Shown piece after piece: positions 13,292 through 32,559 of a stretch of 47,886 bases of DNA. The position numbers were made by a program, and so were the translations under genes. Within the stretch, counting starts at the first letter, position 1. The number at the start of each line of letters is the position of its first letter. Source of the stretch: Candidatus Delongbacteria bacterium. GTDB lineage: Bacteria > JAGOEH01. The stretch is from NCBI GenBank assembly GCA_017997825.1, contig JAGOEH010000005.1, positions 1 to 47,886 on the forward strand, in the 5' to 3' direction. The notes below the pieces were generated by a model, which did not search any database, was not told where the DNA came from, and saw only the letters and a program-made list of their open reading frames with translations.

Positions 13292-13582
13292 GTGCCGCTC
13301 AAATCAGCCCGCGATCTGGCCTTTGAAAAATCCAACCAATACATCGATTCCAGCCTCATCCAAAAATTATCCCCATCCCAAAAGAACCAATTGGATGAGC
13401 TGCGTCAAAAATACCAGGCTAAAATTGCCGAACAGGAAATCATGGCCCAATCCAAAATGAATCAATTGCCCCCGGACCAGGTCGATGCGTGCCGTCAAGA
13501 ATTGGCACAAATCCGGCAGCAAATCCAGCATGACCTGGATGTAAAAATACAAAACCTGATGGATCAATTTAAAAATGAATAA
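13292..13582 (+). CDS. small charged helical protein of unknown function
   Basis: I do not recognise this 96-residue protein. It starts with GTG, justified by a perfect AAGGAGGT (13280-13287) four bases upstream. It has no signal peptide or membrane segment. Its composition is rich in Gln, Lys, Glu and Leu with heptad-like spacing (SQKNQLDELRQKYQAKIAEQ, then ELAQIRQQIQHDLDVKIQNL), so it is probably a helical or coiled-coil protein of the cytoplasm. Its last eight bases overlap the start of the secreted subtilase gene, which argues for translational coupling. A role connected with that protease, such as a chaperone or regulator, is only a guess from position. Confidence 0.8.
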   Translation: MPLKSARDLAFEKSNQYIDSSLIQKLSPSQKNQLDELRQKYQAKIAEQEIMAQSKMNQLPPDQVDACRQELAQIRQQIQHDLDVKIQNLMDQFKNE

Positions 13583-16331
13583 TAGAATCCTCACCCTAGG
13601 TGTCTGGCTGATCCTGATCATATGGACAGCCTCCGTGAAGCCCGATGATTTTCACCCCCATCAACTGATCATCCGGCTGCCGTCTACCCTGGCCAAATCA
13701 TCCTTATCCCGTCTTCCGGTATCGATCCATCACAGCACCCTCCTTTTCAATGACCACCTTCATCATAGCTACTACCTATTGGAGATCGAAGATTCGGTCG
13801 ATCTGACCATAGCTTTCCGGGAACTCTCGGCTTATGGCTATCCGATATATTACAATCATATCCTGCATGCCTGCCGGGATATCGTTCCTCCCAATGATCC
13901 CCGTTACAGCGATCAGCCCCACCTATCCAGGATTCAAGCCCCCCTGGCCTGGGAATATTTTAAGGGAAACGGAACGGTTCCGGTTTATATTCTGGATTCA
14001 GGCGTCGATTATCATCATCCGGATCTGGTACCCTCCCTGTATCATAATCCCGGAGAGATCGCGAACGGCCTGGATGATGATCACAACGGGTTAATCGATG
14101 ACACGATCGGATATGATTTTGTGACGGTTGATCCGGGGCAGACCGACAATGGTGATGGGTATCCCCCGGATAATGACGTGATGGATTGCGCTTCACACGG
14201 CACCTCGGTGGCCGGTATCGCCGGTGCGGCAACGAATAACGGCATCGGATTGGCCGCTATGAATTGGAATGCCCGTCTCTATCCGATCCGGGTCGCCTAT
14301 TCTTATCAAGGATCATTGGATGCAATGGAAAGTGATGTGATCAACGGAATCGAATACGCTCTTTCTATGGGAGCTCGGGTTATCAGTTTCAGTTACGGCG
14401 GTATCGCTAAGACTCCAGCCCTACACGCTGCCATTCAAAAGGCTACCTATCAGGGCGCCCTTTTTCTGGCTGCCGCCGGCAATGAATTCACCGAAACCAA
14501 ATACTATCCCTCCGCCTATCCGGAAGCGATCGCCGTGACCGCCCTTTACAGCAATGACATGAATGCGTCCTATGTCTACGGAAGCTGGATTGATCTGGCC
14601 GCCCCGTGCAAAATGATGACCACTCTGCCCAATAACCGATATGACTCGCCATCCGGCACCTCCATGGCCACGCCCCTGGTGGCGGCCGCCATGGCTTATC
14701 TGATGGAATACCGCCCCACTTATTCATCATCCCAGATCCAACATTTACTCTACCGATGCGCCGACAGCCTCGACCAGAAAAATCCCGCCATCCGAAATAA
14801 ACTGGGATATGGTCGAATCAATATCGGACGCGCCTTCCAGTCGGCCGACAGCCTTAGCTTAGTGCTGGCCGATTCATTCCGCCTACAGTCATCTCAAACC
14901 GACCTCCCCATGCAGTCCGGACAAAGCGTTATCTTAAATTTTCAACTCTATAATCCCGGTCCCAACCCACAGCCCCCATCCTCCATGGACCTGAGTTTTC
15001 CTCTGCAAGCCGGGTATGTTCAAAGCTCCCTCAATCCGATCGATCTACCTGAACTGGCCGTCGGTCAACGCTGGCAATCCCCGGATATTCTTCTTTCCCT
15101 CTCCGATCAGCTCCCATTCGAAAGCGAATTACTCGGACAACTGACTGTCACTTCCGGCAGCCAACGGTTGTATTCGATCAACCAGGTTTTGGAACCTAAA
15201 ATCAACCCCATCTTCCATACCCTACATACCGGCAATCTGGCCTGCTCCTTTTCCTCCATCGGCCTGATCGGCCATAATGATGTCGTTTCTTTCAGTAAAT
15301 ATCATCCTTACAGCGAGTATTACCTTGGTGACGGTATCCTCTACAGGGATTTTCCGGATATATGCTTCACCGCCGGCTGCTGGTTCGGGGGTTCCAATAC
15401 CCCGGTTTATGACGGCACCCTAAAAAATACAGTCAAAACCCTCTCCGAATGGGTTCAGCATACGCCATGGCAAATCGATACACTGAACAATGGTCTGATC
15501 GTTCTACAGAGTTCTTTTGCCTCCGATACCGCCGATCCAACCATCCGAATCCGTCAGAGTATTTATTCCTTTCCCGATTCCAATTATTTTCTGTTACATT
15601 ACACGGTCTATAACTATTCATCCCAGCCGGTCATCAATCCACGATTCGGACTGTTTTGGGAACTGGATATGATACGCTACACCCAAAATCAGGTTACCCT
15701 TGATACGGCCCGGAACATGATCGTTCAACACTATCAGACCAGCCTCTATACCGGAATCGCTTGTCTGAAAGGGGATAATCCCCGATACCGGAGTATAACC
15801 GATTATTGTAATCTGAACCTAGCCGACAACCAGAAATTTATCTGCCTCAACAATTCCAGTATTTCCAATGAAACCGGGGATATGGCCGTTCTGATCAGTA
15901 ACGGCGTCACCGATCAGCAATTGGAGATATACTCTCAAATGCCGGACAGTCTGGATGGCTGGTATTTCATGAGTGTGGCCGAGAACCAGGAATTACTGAA
16001 CCAGCGTCTGGAATCAGCTCGATCGGCCTTGAATTCCATAATCACCGATATTGCGGATTCGGAACGCCCCGATGCCCGTCCCCCCTGTATCAGGCTTTAC
16101 CCAAATCCGGCCGGACACAAGATTACAGTCGAATACGCCCATATGGAACCCGGCACCTATCACTTAAGGCTTTTCAATCTGTTGGGACAACCGATATGGG
16201 AAACCCAGCTCTCATTCTCCTCCGAGGGCATGATTCCCCTATGTCTCCCCGAACTGCCGAATGGTGTCTTTTTCATTAAACTGCATCGATCCTCGATAAC
16301 CTCTATCCATAAAATCATGATTTTGAAATAA
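13575..16331 (+). CDS. secreted subtilisin-family protease with C-terminal sorting domain
   Basis: This is a 918-residue S8 serine protease. An N-terminal signal segment (ILTLGVWLILIIWTAS) is followed by a ~100-residue pro-like region. The catalytic domain has Asp141 (VYILDSGVD), His208 (DCASHGTSVAGIAG), the oxyanion Asn303 (AAAGNE) and Ser363 (SGTSMATPLVAA). An inserted acidic loop, NGLDDDHNGLIDD at 165-176, resembles a calcium site. The middle third is a beta-rich region without a recognised family. The last ~80 residues form a type-A-like T9SS sorting domain: RLYPNPAGHKI, then LRLFNLLGQPIWE, then a Gly-Val-Phe-Phe-Ile-Lys-Leu strand ending ILK. It is thus predicted to be exported to the cell surface or medium by a Por-type pathway. 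The start overlaps the preceding small gene. Confidence 0.93.
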   Translation: MNNRILTLGVWLILIIWTASVKPDDFHPHQLIIRLPSTLAKSSLSRLPVSIHHSTLLFNDHLHHSYYLLEIEDSVDLTIAFRELSAYGYPIYYNHILHACRDIVPPNDPRYSDQPHLSRIQAPLAWEYFKGNGTVPVYILDSGVDYHHPDLVPSLYHNPGEIANGLDDDHNGLIDDTIGYDFVTVDPGQTDNGDGYPPDNDVMDCASHGTSVAGIAGAATNNGIGLAAMNWNARLYPIRVAYSYQGSLDAMESDVINGIEYALSMGARVISFSYGGIAKTPALHAAIQKATYQGALFLAAAGNEFTETKYYPSAYPEAIAVTALYSNDMNASYVYGSWIDLAAPCKMMTTLPNNRYDSPSGTSMATPLVAAAMAYLMEYRPTYSSSQIQHLLYRCADSLDQKNPAIRNKLGYGRINIGRAFQSADSLSLVLADSFRLQSSQTDLPMQSGQSVILNFQLYNPGPNPQPPSSMDLSFPLQAGYVQSSLNPIDLPELAVGQRWQSPDILLSLSDQLPFESELLGQLTVTSGSQRLYSINQVLEPKINPIFHTLHTGNLACSFSSIGLIGHNDVVSFSKYHPYSEYYLGDGILYRDFPDICFTAGCWFGGSNTPVYDGTLKNTVKTLSEWVQHTPWQIDTLNNGLIVLQSSFASDTADPTIRIRQSIYSFPDSNYFLLHYTVYNYSSQPVINPRFGLFWELDMIRYTQNQVTLDTARNMIVQHYQTSLYTGIACLKGDNPRYRSITDYCNLNLADNQKFICLNNSSISNETGDMAVLISNGVTDQQLEIYSQMPDSLDGWYFMSVAENQELLNQRLESARSALNSIITDIADSERPDARPPCIRLYPNPAGHKITVEYAHMEPGTYHLRLFNLLGQPIWETQLSFSSEGMIPLCLPELPNGVFFIKLHRSSITSIHKIMILK

Positions 16332-20676: not shown

Positions 20677-22163
20677 ATCCCTATCAGATCCAGAAGGATC
20701 TGACGGAATTCCTGAAACAAAAATATGGCGATCAGGCGGTTGTGCCGGAAATCAATTTCAGTGAAAAAGATGGCACCGAGAGCCATGAACCGGAAGCTCC
20801 TGAGATCAATTTTAGTCTGACGCCTGATCAACTGGCCGCCTATCTGAATGAGTATGTCATCAATCAGCAGGAAGCGGTAGAAATCCTCTCCACCAAAGTC
20901 TGTACCCATTTCCACCGCATCAATTATCTACGCCGCCGGCCGATGGAATCCGCCGCTCTAACCGGCAATATCAAAAACAACATCCTGATGATCGGATCGA
21001 CAGGGGTTGGAAAAACCTATATTATCAAGCTGATCGCCGATAAAATCGGAGTACCGTTTGTGAAAGCCGATGCCACCAAATTCAGTGAAACCGGGTATGT
21101 AGGGGGGGATGTAGAGGATATCATCCGGGATCTGGTCAAGGAAGCCAAAGGCAATATCAAGGCGGCTGAATATGGAATCGTCTATATTGATGAAATCGAT
21201 AAAATCGCGGCCGGCAAGGGGATTATCGGTCCCGATGTATCCAGAACCGGGGTCCAGCGCAACCTGCTCAAATTGATGGAAGAGACCGAAGTCAATCTCA
21301 AGGTCCCCCATGATATCGCCTCTCAGATGGAGGCACTGATGGAAGTCCAGAAGAACGGGAAACTGAAACGGCAGGTCATCAATACCCGCCACATCCTTTT
21401 TATCGTCTCGGGAGCCTTCGACGGCCTGGCTGATATTATCAAACGACGGAAAAACAAGCAGGAAATCGGATTTTACAGCCAACTCTCCACCCGGCGGGAC
21501 GAGATCGAATACCTCAAAATGATGCAAACCGACGACCTGATCGAATATGGTTTCGAATCCGAATTCATCGGCCGCCTCCCCGTCATCACCGTCCTGAACG
21601 ATCTGACCGAAGCGGATCTGCTTAAAATCCTGAATAATCCCAAAAGCTCGATCATCAATTCTAAAAAAATCGATTTCGCGTCGTATGGAATCAGCCTGGA
21701 ATTCACCCAGGAGGCATTGCATCATTATGCCAAGCTGGCCGCCAAAGAAAAAACCGGGGCCCGCAGCTTGGTCAGTGTAATCGAAAAATCGCTGATCCGC
21801 TATGAACGCAGCCTGCCTTCCACCACCCTCAAAGACTTCCTGGTTACCGAATCCGTCGCTGTGTCCGATGAATTCACACTTCCGGCCATCATCATTGAAA
21901 ACAGCCTGAACCAGTTTCGGAATGAGTATGAGCATATTTACCATATCCGGCTAAACTTTACCACGGATGCCATCGAATACCTGAATGAAACCTTCCGGGA
22001 AAATCCCGCCGGAGTTCGGGAGTATTGTCATGGAATCCTGAAAGATTACGAATATGGACTCAATCTGGTCAACCAGAGTGAATTCACCATTACCCGCGAG
22101 GTTTTAATCGATCCCCGAAGTTATCTGACTCGCCTGATCAAAGAATCATATGAAAAGAATTGA
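20664..22163 (+). CDS. ClpX-like AAA+ unfoldase without zinc domain, extra C-terminal lid-like repeat
   Basis: This 499-residue ATPase follows the ClpX core closely: Walker A GSTGVGKT (111-118), pore loop GYVG (144-147), Walker B IVYIDEIDK (172-180), the box FIGRLP with the arginine finger (301-306) and sensor-2 GARS (365-368). It even keeps an IGF tripeptide (268-270) at the position of the ClpP-docking loop, so partnering with ClpP is plausible. The zinc-binding N-domain is absent, replaced by ~50 acidic residues. After the normal lid (ISLEFTQEALHHYAKLAA..., 343-388), a second segment with the same pattern (IRLNFTTDAIEYL...AGVREYCHGILKD, 428-461) follows. It is therefore a paralogue, not standard clpX. 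The ATG at 20664 overlaps rsmE; the longer upstream frame overlaps the rsmE SPOUT domain and is not used. Confidence 0.88.
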   Translation: MSKLDPYQIQKDLTEFLKQKYGDQAVVPEINFSEKDGTESHEPEAPEINFSLTPDQLAAYLNEYVINQQEAVEILSTKVCTHFHRINYLRRRPMESAALTGNIKNNILMIGSTGVGKTYIIKLIADKIGVPFVKADATKFSETGYVGGDVEDIIRDLVKEAKGNIKAAEYGIVYIDEIDKIAAGKGIIGPDVSRTGVQRNLLKLMEETEVNLKVPHDIASQMEALMEVQKNGKLKRQVINTRHILFIVSGAFDGLADIIKRRKNKQEIGFYSQLSTRRDEIEYLKMMQTDDLIEYGFESEFIGRLPVITVLNDLTEADLLKILNNPKSSIINSKKIDFASYGISLEFTQEALHHYAKLAAKEKTGARSLVSVIEKSLIRYERSLPSTTLKDFLVTESVAVSDEFTLPAIIIENSLNQFRNEYEHIYHIRLNFTTDAIEYLNETFRENPAGVREYCHGILKDYEYGLNLVNQSEFTITREVLIDPRSYLTRLIKESYEKN

Positions 22164-24585
22164 ATTATGGCTTGTGTTGGGCATTCTGATCCGGTTCAGC
22201 GCGATTCAGGCAGCCCCTCACCTGTTGATCCTGACCATCGATACCTTCCGTCCCGATTTTGTCGGCTGCTTTCATCCCACTGCCGATCCGGCTTCCTCCC
22301 TGACACCAGCCCTGGATTCACTGGCCGGCGAATCGGTTGTTTTTAGCCGATGCTATGCCACCTCAGCCTGGACCTCACCCGGACTGGTCTCCATCCTGAC
22401 CGGACTCTACCCATCCTCTCACCAGGTCACATCCCGGGATCGATCCATCCCTCCAACTCTTCCGACCCTCTTCAAACTCATTACTCCGATCGGGTACCAG
22501 TGCCAGGATATCTGCTATCTGACTGTAATCCCGAATTTCTACCATCTGGGAATGACCCCCTACCCGGAACGTGAACAATACCTAAACTCCGGCGACCAAA
22601 TCCTGTTCCACTACCTAGAAAACTACCGTTCAACCGCTCCCTTCGGGTTGTGGTACCATTACCGCGATCTGCATATCCCCTATGAAGCCGACTTCCGCTA
22701 TCTGCCATCAGATTTTAAAACCATGATTCCATCCGATTCGAACGCTCTCAAGCGATACCGTCTGGTGACTACCATGCCGGTCATCCATTATGGTTCAGTC
22801 GCATTTCTCCCGACGGACTCGCTTTGGGTTAAACCGCTGTATGGATCCCAGGTCAAGCGCATGGATACCGAATTTATCGCCCCCTTGATCCGGCAACTGA
22901 AAGCGCAGGCAATATGGGATGATCTGATACTGATCATCACGGCCGACCATGGCGAGGAGTTATTGGAACACGGGTTTGTGGGGCATGGTTCCACTTCGCT
23001 CAACAGCCGGCTCTATAACGAAATCATCCACATTCCACTAATCATCAAATTCCCCCGCCGCGAGTATGCCGGCCGGAAAATTACCGATATGGTCCAACAA
23101 ATCGATCTGGTGCCGACCATCCTGGACTACCTTCACATCCCGATCCCCCAATCGCTTCAGGGCCAGAGCTTGATCCCCCTGTTGCAGGGAGACCGGATCA
23201 ATCGCCCCTTTTTAATGGCGGAAACCAATCCCGGCGGCTATCAGGCTGATCCGTCCATGCTGAACACCGAGATCAAAGCCCTCTTCAATTCAAAAGCCAA
23301 ACTGATCCGCACCCGGGATCCGAGCAACTCTCACTATGAATTCTATGATCTGTATCGGGATCCCAAAGAGAAAACCGATCTCTATCCGGCTCACCACTCC
23401 GAACTCAATATCCTGATGGACGGATTGGAACCCAAAATCTCAGCCACACCCGAAAGCTCTCAAACCGCTTCGATTAGAATTCCGGACACCGTCCGTGCCC
23501 ATTCTCAACTTATGATTCCGACGATTCTGGTCCCTAAGAACAGCGACCGGCTCTCTTATCAGCTTCATCAGGGAGCCATCCATGGAGAATGGACGGGACC
23601 GGATTCGATTTGGTATATCCTGAACTATCAGGTCGGAAGCGGTTCGCTCAGTCTGAAAGGAGAATTCAGGGTATTTGGCAACCGCCATGTTTTCGGCCCC
23701 TTCAGCCCGGCTATGTGGAATACCTTGGCCATTTATAATCCATGGGTATTTCGGGTTTACCCGGAGGGAAGGCCCGATCTTCAGAGCCGGCGGCTGGATT
23801 TCACCCTAACCGCTTACCAGCCCAATCATGGGCATTCTCCATCCTCCCTCGCACTCTTTTTTTTCCGATCCCGGCCGCTCATCAGCTCGATCCTAACCCA
23901 ATCCCCCCTCTTTTCACGATACGGCTTGATCGGAATCATGATCCTGACTCTGCTCGGTATCCTGATCTACGCCATGCGATATGCTCCTCCAGGCCAAGGT
24001 AAAGCCAATCTTTGCCTGGCCCTGTTTTTGCTCGTACTGCAATTCCATTTCTTCACCTTGGGTGTTATGCCGCTGTATTGGGAAAAACTCTACCATTGGG
24101 CGGGAGGCGGAGAAAAACTCTCCGGGTATTCGCTCTATCTGGGAGGACTTTTCTTCTTTCTGTTCATTCTGGTTTATCTGATCCGACGTCGAACCCGAAT
24201 CTGGTGGAAAATTATGCTGGACGCCCTGACCATCATTGGTTTGTTGCTGGTTCTCTATCATCAGAGCATCGCCGCCACCCGATTCCATATTTTTATCTAT
24301 ACCCTGTTGGGACTCCTCCTGATCCACTATCTCCATTACCGCGGCCGATCATTCCGAACCAGCCTGATTACCAGTGTACTGATGATGAGTTTTTTCAGTC
24401 TGCTGGATGAACTGATCCAGTTTTATCTACCGATCCGCTATTTCGGTCTCGATGATATCTGGATCAATCTGCTGTCCTCCCTGGCCGGAATCAGCCTCGG
24501 AGTTTCGATGCTATCCCCATCCCCGCATCCATCCCGGCCCTCGATCGATCAGAATTACCACGGTTATCCGCCGGATGACCAATAA
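22150..24585 (+). CDS. sulfatase/alkaline-phosphatase-fold protein fused to VanZ-like membrane domain
   Basis: The first ~450 residues have the sulfatase fold after a signal segment: LTIDTFRPDF (Asp31 metal ligand), AWTSPGLVSILTGLYP, ITADHGEELLEHGFVGHG (Asp266, His267, His279) and the IHIPLIIKFP strand. At the nucleophile position, where type I sulfatases have Cys/Ser-x-Pro-x-Arg, it has Thr75 without the Arg. Formylglycine formation is thus not expected, and a phosphatase or phosphotransferase activity is more likely. A beta-type region (~450-590) leads to about seven hydrophobic segments. The last ~110 residues match VanZ, with YRGRSFRTSL, FFSLLDELIQFYLPIRYFGLDD and a final helix. The catalytic part should face the periplasm. 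The start overlaps the ClpX-like gene by 14 bases. 24586-24747 downstream shows no gene or clear terminator. Confidence 0.85.
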   Translation: MKRIELWLVLGILIRFSAIQAAPHLLILTIDTFRPDFVGCFHPTADPASSLTPALDSLAGESVVFSRCYATSAWTSPGLVSILTGLYPSSHQVTSRDRSIPPTLPTLFKLITPIGYQCQDICYLTVIPNFYHLGMTPYPEREQYLNSGDQILFHYLENYRSTAPFGLWYHYRDLHIPYEADFRYLPSDFKTMIPSDSNALKRYRLVTTMPVIHYGSVAFLPTDSLWVKPLYGSQVKRMDTEFIAPLIRQLKAQAIWDDLILIITADHGEELLEHGFVGHGSTSLNSRLYNEIIHIPLIIKFPRREYAGRKITDMVQQIDLVPTILDYLHIPIPQSLQGQSLIPLLQGDRINRPFLMAETNPGGYQADPSMLNTEIKALFNSKAKLIRTRDPSNSHYEFYDLYRDPKEKTDLYPAHHSELNILMDGLEPKISATPESSQTASIRIPDTVRAHSQLMIPTILVPKNSDRLSYQLHQGAIHGEWTGPDSIWYILNYQVGSGSLSLKGEFRVFGNRHVFGPFSPAMWNTLAIYNPWVFRVYPEGRPDLQSRRLDFTLTAYQPNHGHSPSSLALFFFRSRPLISSILTQSPLFSRYGLIGIMILTLLGILIYAMRYAPPGQGKANLCLALFLLVLQFHFFTLGVMPLYWEKLYHWAGGGEKLSGYSLYLGGLFFFLFILVYLIRRRTRIWWKIMLDALTIIGLLLVLYHQSIAATRFHIFIYTLLGLLLIHYLHYRGRSFRTSLITSVLMMSFFSLLDELIQFYLPIRYFGLDDIWINLLSSLAGISLGVSMLSPSPHPSRPSIDQNYHGYPPDDQ

Positions 24586-29345: not shown

Positions 29346-29726
29346 TCAATTAAAAAACTGATAGTCGATCGAGACCGATCGGAGGGGAACCCGGATCCGA
29401 TCAAAACGGACTCGGATTGAATCACTATACCAGTCGCCATGAAAGCTGGAATCGGCGGCTCCAAACAACAGCATCTGATGGTAAGCTTTATCATACATAA
29501 AAAAACTAACCCGGACAGTGTCGGTAAAATCCCCCCGGATGCGCAAGTCGATCCCCCAAATACTTCCCTGCCAGTTTTTCTTCTTCAGGACAATCATTGT
29601 ATCCTGTGAAATATCCAGCATCAGACCGCTTCGTTCTTTCATGGCCCAGCAGCCTGACAACAGACTGCCTATAACGATCCCTATTCCAAGAGATCTCCCT
29701 AACCATACAATCGTTTTCATCATCAT
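29346..29726 (-). CDS. small lipoprotein of unknown function
   Basis: This 126-residue protein starts with a lipoprotein signal: MMMKT, a hydrophobic stretch (GIGIVIGSLLSGC) and a lipobox LSGC. It should be anchored in the inner or outer membrane after lipidation of that Cys. The remaining ~95 residues are mainly predicted beta strands with pairs such as DTVRVSFFMYDK and RFDRIRVPLRSVSIDYQFF; I do not recognise a family. The ATG at 29726 (three tandem ATGs follow) lies seven bases after AAAGG and just after the stop of the hydrolase gene. It is therefore in the same transcript and coupled to it. The longer upstream frame is not used. Confidence 0.8.
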   Translation of the reverse strand: MMMKTIVWLGRSLGIGIVIGSLLSGCWAMKERSGLMLDISQDTMIVLKKKNWQGSIWGIDLRIRGDFTDTVRVSFFMYDKAYHQMLLFGAADSSFHGDWYSDSIRVRFDRIRVPLRSVSIDYQFFN

Positions 29727-29727
29727 T

Positions 29728-32559
29728 TCACTGCCTTTGAAACGTTCCGGAGGCATTGATATTATTACGGCTTTCCCAATCCGGCTGCCACCAGTGAATC
29801 CGGACAGTCGAATCGACCGGTGAAACATCTCGCTGAGCAATATTCAAACGAACCTCTCTCCAGTTTTCCCCTTGACGCTCATTTAAATAGGATATCGGAA
29901 CGGCAATTTCGGCTGCATAACCGTTCCGATCCGTTAAAGCGGTTGCCCGGGTGCCGGATGGAAGCTTTTTCCCGTAAAAAGTATCGGTTTGCAATAACAT
30001 CGAAGATGGAGTGTGACCGGGAGAGAGAGTCAGTACTAAAAAATCTACCCATTTGGATAGCCCCCGGCCTAAGGAACGGACAGGATCAGGCCGAGCATCC
30101 AGATAAATCATTATCCCATCTCTGAGAGCCGGATCGGTACCATTAACGACCAATCCGCTGTCTATTACCTGGATTGCCAGGTAAAACCAGTGATCATCCC
30201 ATGTCATATCAAACTTGAAATTACCCCCGGATTCCGGCATCAGGGTATGACAGGATAGGGGTTCCCATTCCTTCAAATCACCATCCACCTTGATCTGAAC
30301 AGGCTTTCGCCTTATTGACCGCCTCGGGTACTCATTCACATTATAACTCCGTATGGACAACGCCGCATTCTGATCCTGATGTTTCATCCTCAACACCGTC
30401 CACCCGGCACGGACTGGAACAATTGAGCCGCTCAGCGGGTCCAGAATCCCGGCTTTGGATGTGTCCATAATTTCCATGACAGGACTGACGGCATTACATC
30501 GATAACCATCAGAATACTGCAATTCAAGTAAAAAATTGGCATTCTCACCCAGCGATTCAAGATCGGCCATATGTAAAGAACCACTTCCAATCGATTTGAC
30601 GGCACAATCCAGCGGGCGAGGTTTATTCTTCCAAAGCAAGAAATGAAGCATTTCCTCCATCTGTTGGCGACATGATACTCGAGAATGATACCCGCCATAG
30701 ACATGGCAATAGGCCAGATTATCTCCTTCTGTCCACCCCTGATTCAGCAAATGCTGAGCTACTCGCCGAGCATTCCGCCACATTGCAGGATCCTCAGTGT
30801 CAGCCGACATAATCCAGAACCGGGTCTTGGGCTGATGATACGCTCCTTGGGCAGTCAATCGGATCGGATAGTCATTATCCCACCAAAAAGACGGACTCAT
30901 ACAGGCCGACAACCCAAATCGATCAGGATGAGAATAGGCCAGATGAAAGGATGCCAATCCACCCAATGAATGACCGACAATCCCGGTACAACAAGGATCT
31001 TTCATAGTCCGAAAACTATGGTCAATATAAGGCTTAATCACCTTGTTCCAATAATGATAGAACTGATCCAATTCACCTCCCGGAATTCTACAGATTCCCG
31101 GAGTCGGCGTCAGTTCCTTGAAGCGGTTTCCATTATTATGAATGGCAACCAAAATAGCCGGATTGATTAAACCATCATTCCATAACCGATCATGAACCCT
31201 ATCCGCTCCCAAACGGGTGGAATCCGAATTGCATCCGTCGAAAACACGTTCTCCATCCAGAAAATAGAGAACCCGGAATGAATCCTGACACCCATAGTAA
31301 TTCGAGGGCAGAACAACACTGATACTCCTCATGCCATTGAACAATCCCTGGTCCGAAAGGCTATCGATCCGAATCTCACGGGTATATTTCCTGGGACGGG
31401 GATTCCAATGGGCATAGTAAGACACCGTATAGGTTAAAGCGATAAAAGCCCGTTCAACCGACTCAGCCTGAATCCTGATCAGTTCAGTTTTAGATGGAGG
31501 CCGAGTTCTCCACTCTTCCCGTTTCCGATTGACCATCCGATAAATAGAATCCTCGATCGGCATCATGGTTGTAATCATTTTAAGGGCACGATCACAATGA
31601 ACCAGCCGGGGATTGTCATGATCAAAAATCATCGATTTGAGCCGTTGGGCTGCCCCATACATGGAATAGTCGGAAACGGAACTGCTCAAAGCCGGAGGCT
31701 CTCCGACCGGCCAATAAGGAACGGCGATCGAGGCCAGGGGATTGCCCAGCAACCCCCACATCGTAGTCAAAAATGCCGGTTCTCCCGGTTTGACACCATG
31801 AAATACAACGGCCGCAATAGAAAATGGAGTGCATATGGTACGACTGCAATCCACATACCCGTTCGGAACCGACGGATCACCCGATGCCGATAGATTATCC
31901 GGAATATCACGAATCTGATGCTTCATAATACTTCGAACCCCCAAACTGTCCCCCTGGAAAAAGTCCTCGATAAAGGCCGCAGAACGTTTATAACGCTCTA
32001 TTCCATTATTGCCTCCCTGACTGAATGTAAAATTGGTTCTGACAATATAACCATGGGGTGCAGTAATCGAATCATTGGCATCATACATCCAATAATGATG
32101 ACTGTTGACCTCAAATATGGCGGCCCCTCCAATTGAATCCATAATACCGAATACCGCCTTTGTTTTTCGCCCCGTCAGATTGGTCGAATCCAACAAAAGT
32201 TTGAAATCATGGACTGTAGCACACCTTTCAAGCGCCAGATCCATGAAGGGACCGTTGCCTAATCCATTAATCCCTTCCGGATAATCATTGATATAGGTGT
32301 TCACCAAAACCATGCCTTTCTCATTGACTCCAAACCAGGATTGATCAAAACCATATTCCGGTGTTATATTGGACAGAAAATCATATCCATCCGTCCGGGT
32401 GTAATGGAAAATATTCGGTTTGACTTCATAATCACGGGTTTTCCACACCATCGGTCGTCCATCCTCAGTAGCCCTGCCAATCGCCACCCCGATGGTACAG
32501 GATTCCAACTCAGCGAAATTGATGCAGCCGAAAATGATGATCATCCAGAAGGTTTTCAC
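29728..32559 (-). CDS. secreted three-domain hydrolase: Ntn amidase + esterase + CBM9-like
   Basis: This is a 943-residue exported protein. A signal peptide ends just before Cys21 (ES|CTIGVAIGRATEDGRPMVWK), which would become the N-terminal nucleophile of a linear-amide C-N hydrolase (choloylglycine/C45 type) spanning about 21-370. A second enzyme domain (about 395-650) is an esterase-D-like alpha/beta hydrolase with Ser531 in GHSLGG, an SPSFWW strand and His625 (GGYHSR). The last part (about 765-943) looks like a CBM9-type carbohydrate-binding domain (IKVDGDLKEWEPL, FDMTWDDHWFYLAIQV, DGIMIYLDARPDP, AAEIAVPISYL). The start is GTG, set by GGAGGA eight bases upstream. It is followed directly by the lipoprotein gene. 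The natural substrate is unknown; a bile-acid-like or acyl-amide ester substrate is only one possibility. 32560-32769 shows no convincing promoter. Confidence 0.85.
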   Translation of the reverse strand: MKTFWMIIIFGCINFAELESCTIGVAIGRATEDGRPMVWKTRDYEVKPNIFHYTRTDGYDFLSNITPEYGFDQSWFGVNEKGMVLVNTYINDYPEGINGLGNGPFMDLALERCATVHDFKLLLDSTNLTGRKTKAVFGIMDSIGGAAIFEVNSHHYWMYDANDSITAPHGYIVRTNFTFSQGGNNGIERYKRSAAFIEDFFQGDSLGVRSIMKHQIRDIPDNLSASGDPSVPNGYVDCSRTICTPFSIAAVVFHGVKPGEPAFLTTMWGLLGNPLASIAVPYWPVGEPPALSSSVSDYSMYGAAQRLKSMIFDHDNPRLVHCDRALKMITTMMPIEDSIYRMVNRKREEWRTRPPSKTELIRIQAESVERAFIALTYTVSYYAHWNPRPRKYTREIRIDSLSDQGLFNGMRSISVVLPSNYYGCQDSFRVLYFLDGERVFDGCNSDSTRLGADRVHDRLWNDGLINPAILVAIHNNGNRFKELTPTPGICRIPGGELDQFYHYWNKVIKPYIDHSFRTMKDPCCTGIVGHSLGGLASFHLAYSHPDRFGLSACMSPSFWWDNDYPIRLTAQGAYHQPKTRFWIMSADTEDPAMWRNARRVAQHLLNQGWTEGDNLAYCHVYGGYHSRVSCRQQMEEMLHFLLWKNKPRPLDCAVKSIGSGSLHMADLESLGENANFLLELQYSDGYRCNAVSPVMEIMDTSKAGILDPLSGSIVPVRAGWTVLRMKHQDQNAALSIRSYNVNEYPRRSIRRKPVQIKVDGDLKEWEPLSCHTLMPESGGNFKFDMTWDDHWFYLAIQVIDSGLVVNGTDPALRDGIMIYLDARPDPVRSLGRGLSKWVDFLVLTLSPGHTPSSMLLQTDTFYGKKLPSGTRATALTDRNGYAAEIAVPISYLNERQGENWREVRLNIAQRDVSPVDSTVRIHWWQPDWESRNNINASGTFQRQ

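Follow-up and report, generated by a model that had tools for sequence, protein, structure and literature searches.

An Asn and an Arg are described as essential in the N-terminal-nucleophile (Ntn) hydrolases (PMC2739207); in the bile salt hydrolase LpBSH they are Asn-174 and Arg-227, of which the Arg is reported to be essential (PMC9207391). Several families of the fold bear comparison with the protein considered here: C45/AAT proteins, C69 dipeptidases, and the C59 choloylglycine hydrolases and penicillin V acylases. A second line of comparison leads to serine esterases of the CE1/IroE type, including feruloyl esterases.

The window (the whole stretch of DNA analysed, 47,886 nucleotides of a Candidatus Delongbacteria contig) contains a gene in which both lines meet. 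Its ORF (29728-32559, minus strand) starts with GTG downstream of a GGAGGA motif and runs as a single uninterrupted frame of 943 codons for amino acids. Pfam matches to AAT, Esterase and CBM9_1 all fall on this one ORF, which bears out the three modules that an earlier note had read from the DNA alone; the residues it named, Cys21, Ser531 (in GHSLGG) and His625, are likewise where it placed them in the translation. We put at about 0.5 the probability of the reading as a whole, in which a real fusion specifies one exported two-enzyme protein: an Ntn amide hydrolase, a serine esterase and a tethering tail. The evidence establishes the families, the folds of the first two domains, the nucleophile residues and the single frame; activity at both sites, processing of the chain and binding by the tail we infer.

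The first domain (residues 21-390; 31390..32499, minus strand) is an Ntn hydrolase by both fold and family, as Pfam, NCBIfam, alignment, fold model and profiles agree. The AAT family PF03417 matches residues 37-179 with 25.1 bits in the whole protein (cut-off 23.2), and with 27.4 bits when the domain is scanned alone. The NCBIfam model for the C45 proenzyme, NF040521, scores 39.7 against a cut-off of 85 bits; its alignment begins only at model position 85, implying that the fused protein lacks the long C45 prosegment. An AlphaFold model of the domain (mean pLDDT 92.8) finds 122 PDB matches at E<=0.001, and those listed are Ntn hydrolases (C69 dipeptidase, CV2077, PVA, BSH, AAT, NAAA, acid ceramidase and phospholipase B-like proteins) together with TANGO2. 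The fold proposed earlier, with Cys21 in the nucleophile position, stands.

Which family is closest depends on the measure. Among the matches listed, the best by fold is the C69 dipeptidase 5iau (TM 0.73 by query length), with which the domain shares equal spacing from the Cys to D-G and from the Cys to the second Asp; however, identity is 12%, and the Pfam scan found no match to the C69 family PF03577 at E<=0.1. Profile comparison places C45/AAT proteins closest (Prob 98.3 over 228 columns), whereas the match to C69 is weak (Prob 71, 124 columns). We therefore dropped the C69 filing suggested by the top fold match, since the sequence profiles favour C45/AAT, whose AAT structure 2x1e also matches the model (E=1.7e-08). 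With C45/AAT proteins the domain shares the Cys-Thr nucleophile motif, K-x-R-D and Asn176; it differs in lacking the N-terminal prosegment of about 85 positions and in being joined to an esterase. The C59 enzymes share the Ntn fold, the Cys nucleophile and an equivalent of the Asn, but the active-site Arg of BSH is probably unmatched (Thr244 in the fused protein); Pfam gave no match to choloylglycine hydrolase, PF02275, and the domain profile against a single CBAH protein reached Prob 2.8.

Whether the site still works is a separate matter. In an alignment of 38 rows, numbered so that Cys21 becomes Cys1 of the mature chain, Cys1 occupies 35 rows; D13, G14, R15, P16, K20, R22 and D23 occur in at least 90% of rows; and Cys1, Thr2, N156 and R197 are among the nearly invariant residues. 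The fused protein keeps Cys21, Thr22, Lys40, Arg42, Asp43 and Asn176, and so both the nucleophilic Cys and the oxyanion-hole Asn in that alignment. Two conserved positions, by contrast, have changed: of about 69 relatives, 62 have Asn at position 136 and 62 have Arg at position 244, where the fused protein has Val and Thr; neither V136 nor T244 occurs in any of the roughly 70 other relatives. Judged by chain order and motif rather than by superposition, Asn176 and the Arg of position 244 probably correspond to the essential Asn and Arg of Ntn hydrolases. Because the equivalence of the Arg is drawn in that way, Thr244 weakens the case for amidase activity more than that for kinship. The amidase proposed in the earlier note thus holds for fold and nucleophile; its activity is not assured by the residues present, given the changes N136 to V and R244 to T.

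These changes raise a reading that we consider rather improbable, in which the Ntn domain is non-catalytic, or nearly so, and acts as a binding or structural module, making the protein a tethered CE1-like esterase. It would account for the two unique substitutions and for the deviation of the fused protein at 7 of 54 highly conserved columns (0-5 in comparably close relatives). It would also fit the behaviour of two rows with a Ser or Gly nucleophile (L050, L057), in which Asn176 has become Asp, at least one of K40, R42 and D43 has changed, and Arg244 is missing; such joint change of Asn176 and K40/R42/D43 is as expected if these residues are catalytic. Against it stand the intact Cys21, Thr22, Lys40, Arg42, Asp43 and Asn176. 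Moreover, Asn or Gly stands at position 244 in several relatives that have the Cys, and five relatives in which Cys, Lys, Asp and Asn are all intact likewise lack Arg244, so that loss of the Arg may be tolerated; the nearby Arg240 might stand in for it.

The candidate nucleophile lies just behind a predicted export signal, residues 1-20 (MKTFWMIIIFGCINFAELES; 32500..32559, minus strand), recognized from the sequence and from the N-termini of relatives. Its hydrophobic segment ahead of Cys21 supports the secretion claimed for the protein. Whether the signal ends exactly at Cys21, as also claimed, is less settled. Candidate cleavage sites lie between Ala16 and Glu17 and between Ser20 and Cys21. 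In about 61 relatives of the domain, the residue preceding the nucleophile is Glu in 34, Ala in 11 and Gly in 10, and the spacer between hydrophobic segment and Cys is often 2-40 residues. Cutting behind a Glu is unusual for signal peptidase I, and so most close relatives probably shed a short propeptide by self-cleavage. For the fused protein, a cut behind Ala16, after which the chain would itself remove ELES, is as likely as a direct cut between Ser20 and Cys21. By either route (signal peptidase alone, or signal peptidase and then the chain itself), the segment before Cys21 would be removed after export, leaving a C45/AAT-type hydrolase of linear amides with Cys21 as its N-terminal nucleophile. 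Lipidation at Cys21 (LESC) or Cys12 (IFGC) was also considered and is unlikely: both fit the usual lipobox poorly, and nearly every relative has its nucleophile at the position aligned with Cys21.

The second domain (residues 408-640; 30640..31338, minus strand) is a CE1/IroE-like esterase of the alpha/beta-hydrolase fold, again by Pfam, alignment, fold model and profiles. Esterase PF00756 matches it with 83 bits (cut-off 22). Ser531 and His625 are present in 28 of 29 aligned rows, supporting the separate hydrolase site that the earlier note had proposed. The third member of the triad is most likely Glu589, which aligns with a Glu conserved in the family (in 25 of 30 rows); Asp587 was passed over as the catalytic acid for that reason. 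The top PDB matches of the model are siderophore esterases (BES, IroE-like, EstA/EstB and Fes) and feruloyl or acetylxylan esterases; TAFC is matched as well, and the profile search also found CBM48-CE1 proteins. GHSLGG, the His, the aligned Glu and the fold are shared with CE1/IroE-like and feruloyl esterases (2qm0, 3gff, 7b5v and 1jjf). There are two differences: five residues ahead of Glu589, where the D-x-G-x-x-E motif of the family has its Asp, the fused protein has Met584; and the partner is an N-terminal Ntn domain rather than CBM48. The chain would accordingly carry, independently of Cys21, a putative serine-esterase site formed by Ser531, Glu589 and His625 and belonging to the CE1/siderophore-esterase superfamily.

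Between the esterase and the C-terminal domain lie about 95 residues (650-740; 30340..30612, minus strand) with no Pfam match. Judged by eye, in a part of the model of low confidence, they are possibly Ig-like; a similar-looking stretch follows the esterase in two other proteins (L107 and L008). The C-terminal domain (about residues 745-943; 29731..30327, minus strand) was recognized by Pfam and by C-termini shared with proteins in other genomes. CBM9_1 (PF06452, residues 782-892) scores 19.7 bits in the whole protein and 24.3 when only the C-terminal part is scanned, on either side of the cut-off of 23.4, and close relatives score 33-42 bits; the CBM9-like character claimed earlier is supported, though near the threshold in this protein. 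The same C-terminus is found in metallophosphoesterase proteins of other genomes (L063, L064, L105 and L130), which share about residues 711-943 at 33-38% identity, whereas their catalytic domain is a calcineurin-like phosphoesterase. In the fused protein, this domain would anchor the enzyme on a glycan or some surface.

The families are known; their arrangement is one seen nowhere else in the searches made. A search with the second half of the protein across 386 sampled genomes, searches of 82 genomes of the richest phylum and of two smaller phylum sets, and the loci from a scan of 84,980 species gave no other protein in which this Ntn domain is joined to an esterase; a whole-protein pattern scan of the 84,980 species genomes gave no relative, and no esterase was found on the roughly 70 relatives of the Ntn domain. 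These searches, being sampled or pattern-limited, show rarity rather than uniqueness. A literature search on this domain combination found nothing relevant.

A fusion seen in one metagenome-assembled genome (MAG) of 357 contigs, with no second genome carrying it, might reflect an assembly error that joined two genes. That explanation is very improbable. GC (0.47-0.49) and GC3 (0.47-0.50) are even across the domains of the one continuous ORF; the join keeps the reading frame and falls where domain 1 naturally ends, the point at which relatives (L007, L062/L093) stop; and the host genome holds no near-identical copy of either part, the best paralogues being only 33% and 35% identical. Misassembly is unlikely on these grounds. 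Nothing pointed to the erroneous joining of two genes that the earlier note had named as a refutation, and no second instance of the architecture emerged from the genomes searched.

The host MAG (3.58 Mb, 93% complete) has no relationship to the sampled genomes nearer than "same domain". Over full length, its RpoB shares no more than 57% identity with that of any of 145 sampled genomes, and so the host represents a deep lineage. Elsewhere in the window, 13575-16331 (plus strand) encodes an S8 protease that carries a T9SS sorting tail, consistent with a Bacteroidota-like superphylum for the host, and a single ORF at 22150-24585 (plus strand) joins a sulfatase to a C-terminal VanZ-like membrane part. 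A sensor kinase gene lies upstream of the fused gene, and the neighbours (sensor kinases, phosphatases and a lipoprotein) gave no hint of a pathway.

The lipoprotein had been proposed as coupled to the enzyme. It is a small ORF product of 126 residues (about 29346-29726, minus strand) with the lipobox LLSGC and no family, and its ORF begins one base past the stop codon of the fused gene. Adjacency is therefore real; conserved partnership is not borne out. The sole relative in 290 genomes (L136, 6381-6737, minus strand) is 26% identical over 108 residues, and the genes around it are unrelated. We rejected the lipoprotein as a conserved partner on the basis of this single weak relative among unrelated genes; the coupling is local.

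About 70 relatives of the Ntn domain are at hand; whole-genome searches gave relatives up to 46% identical over the domain, and the scan of the 84,980-species collection, made with an 11-row alignment, placed them in MAGs of Bacteroidota, KSB1, Calditrichota, Neomarinimicrobiota, Latescibacterota, Ignavibacteriae and Cloacimonadota. Most are stand-alone secreted proteins, many with T9SS-type tails. The host itself has a separate 407-residue Ntn paralogue with the Arg intact (contig C302, L002) and, on contig C79 (L139), a true C69 dipeptidase. Second Ntn copies in three loci (L077, L079 and L102) have a Ser nucleophile (ASTIGIATG), Lys for Arg42 and His at 136, and may form a Ser-Ntn subfamily. 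Other fusions occur as well. One protein (L065, 3787-6066, plus strand) joins the Ntn domain to a BPL_N/DJ-1-like domain and HEAT repeats. Another, of 1059 residues, from Candidatus Latescibacterota RS_11_2 (L066, 2552-5731, minus strand; the same as L084), has DUF2961 (GH172) followed by the Ntn domain, placing the nucleophile Cys within the chain. The open-access literature gave nothing under the usual annotation names of the Ntn family.

The substrate of the fused enzyme, including the acylated and amidated polysaccharide that the earlier note suggested, is a guess. DUF2961/GH172 is a glycan-active family (PMC10115798, PMC8605356), and its fusion to an Ntn relative is a weak and indirect pointer to glycans. 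A speculative and quite unlikely extension of the two-enzyme proposal has the Ntn site, re-tooled through Val136 and Thr244, and the CE1-like site successively stripping amide- and ester-linked groups from one polymer or conjugate recognized by the CBM9-like domain. Alternatively, each enzyme may have its own, unrelated substrate, or the target may be a small molecule (a siderophore or peptide with both ester and amide links) instead of a polysaccharide. We regard this too as unlikely: the CBM9-like tail and the DUF2961/GH172 fusion both speak against it, whereas siderophore esterases stand beside feruloyl and acetylxylan esterases among the nearest esterase structures, the nearest Ntn structure among the matches listed is a dipeptidase, and no polysaccharide-degradation genes were seen adjoining the fused gene in the window.

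The two-enzyme fusion belongs to an Ntn family that occurs widely, in secreted form, across many bacterial phyla that have received little study. Its fusions, whether to an esterase and a CBM9-like domain, to GH172/DUF2961 or to BPL_N and HEAT domains, provide concrete hints for assigning a substrate to the family.
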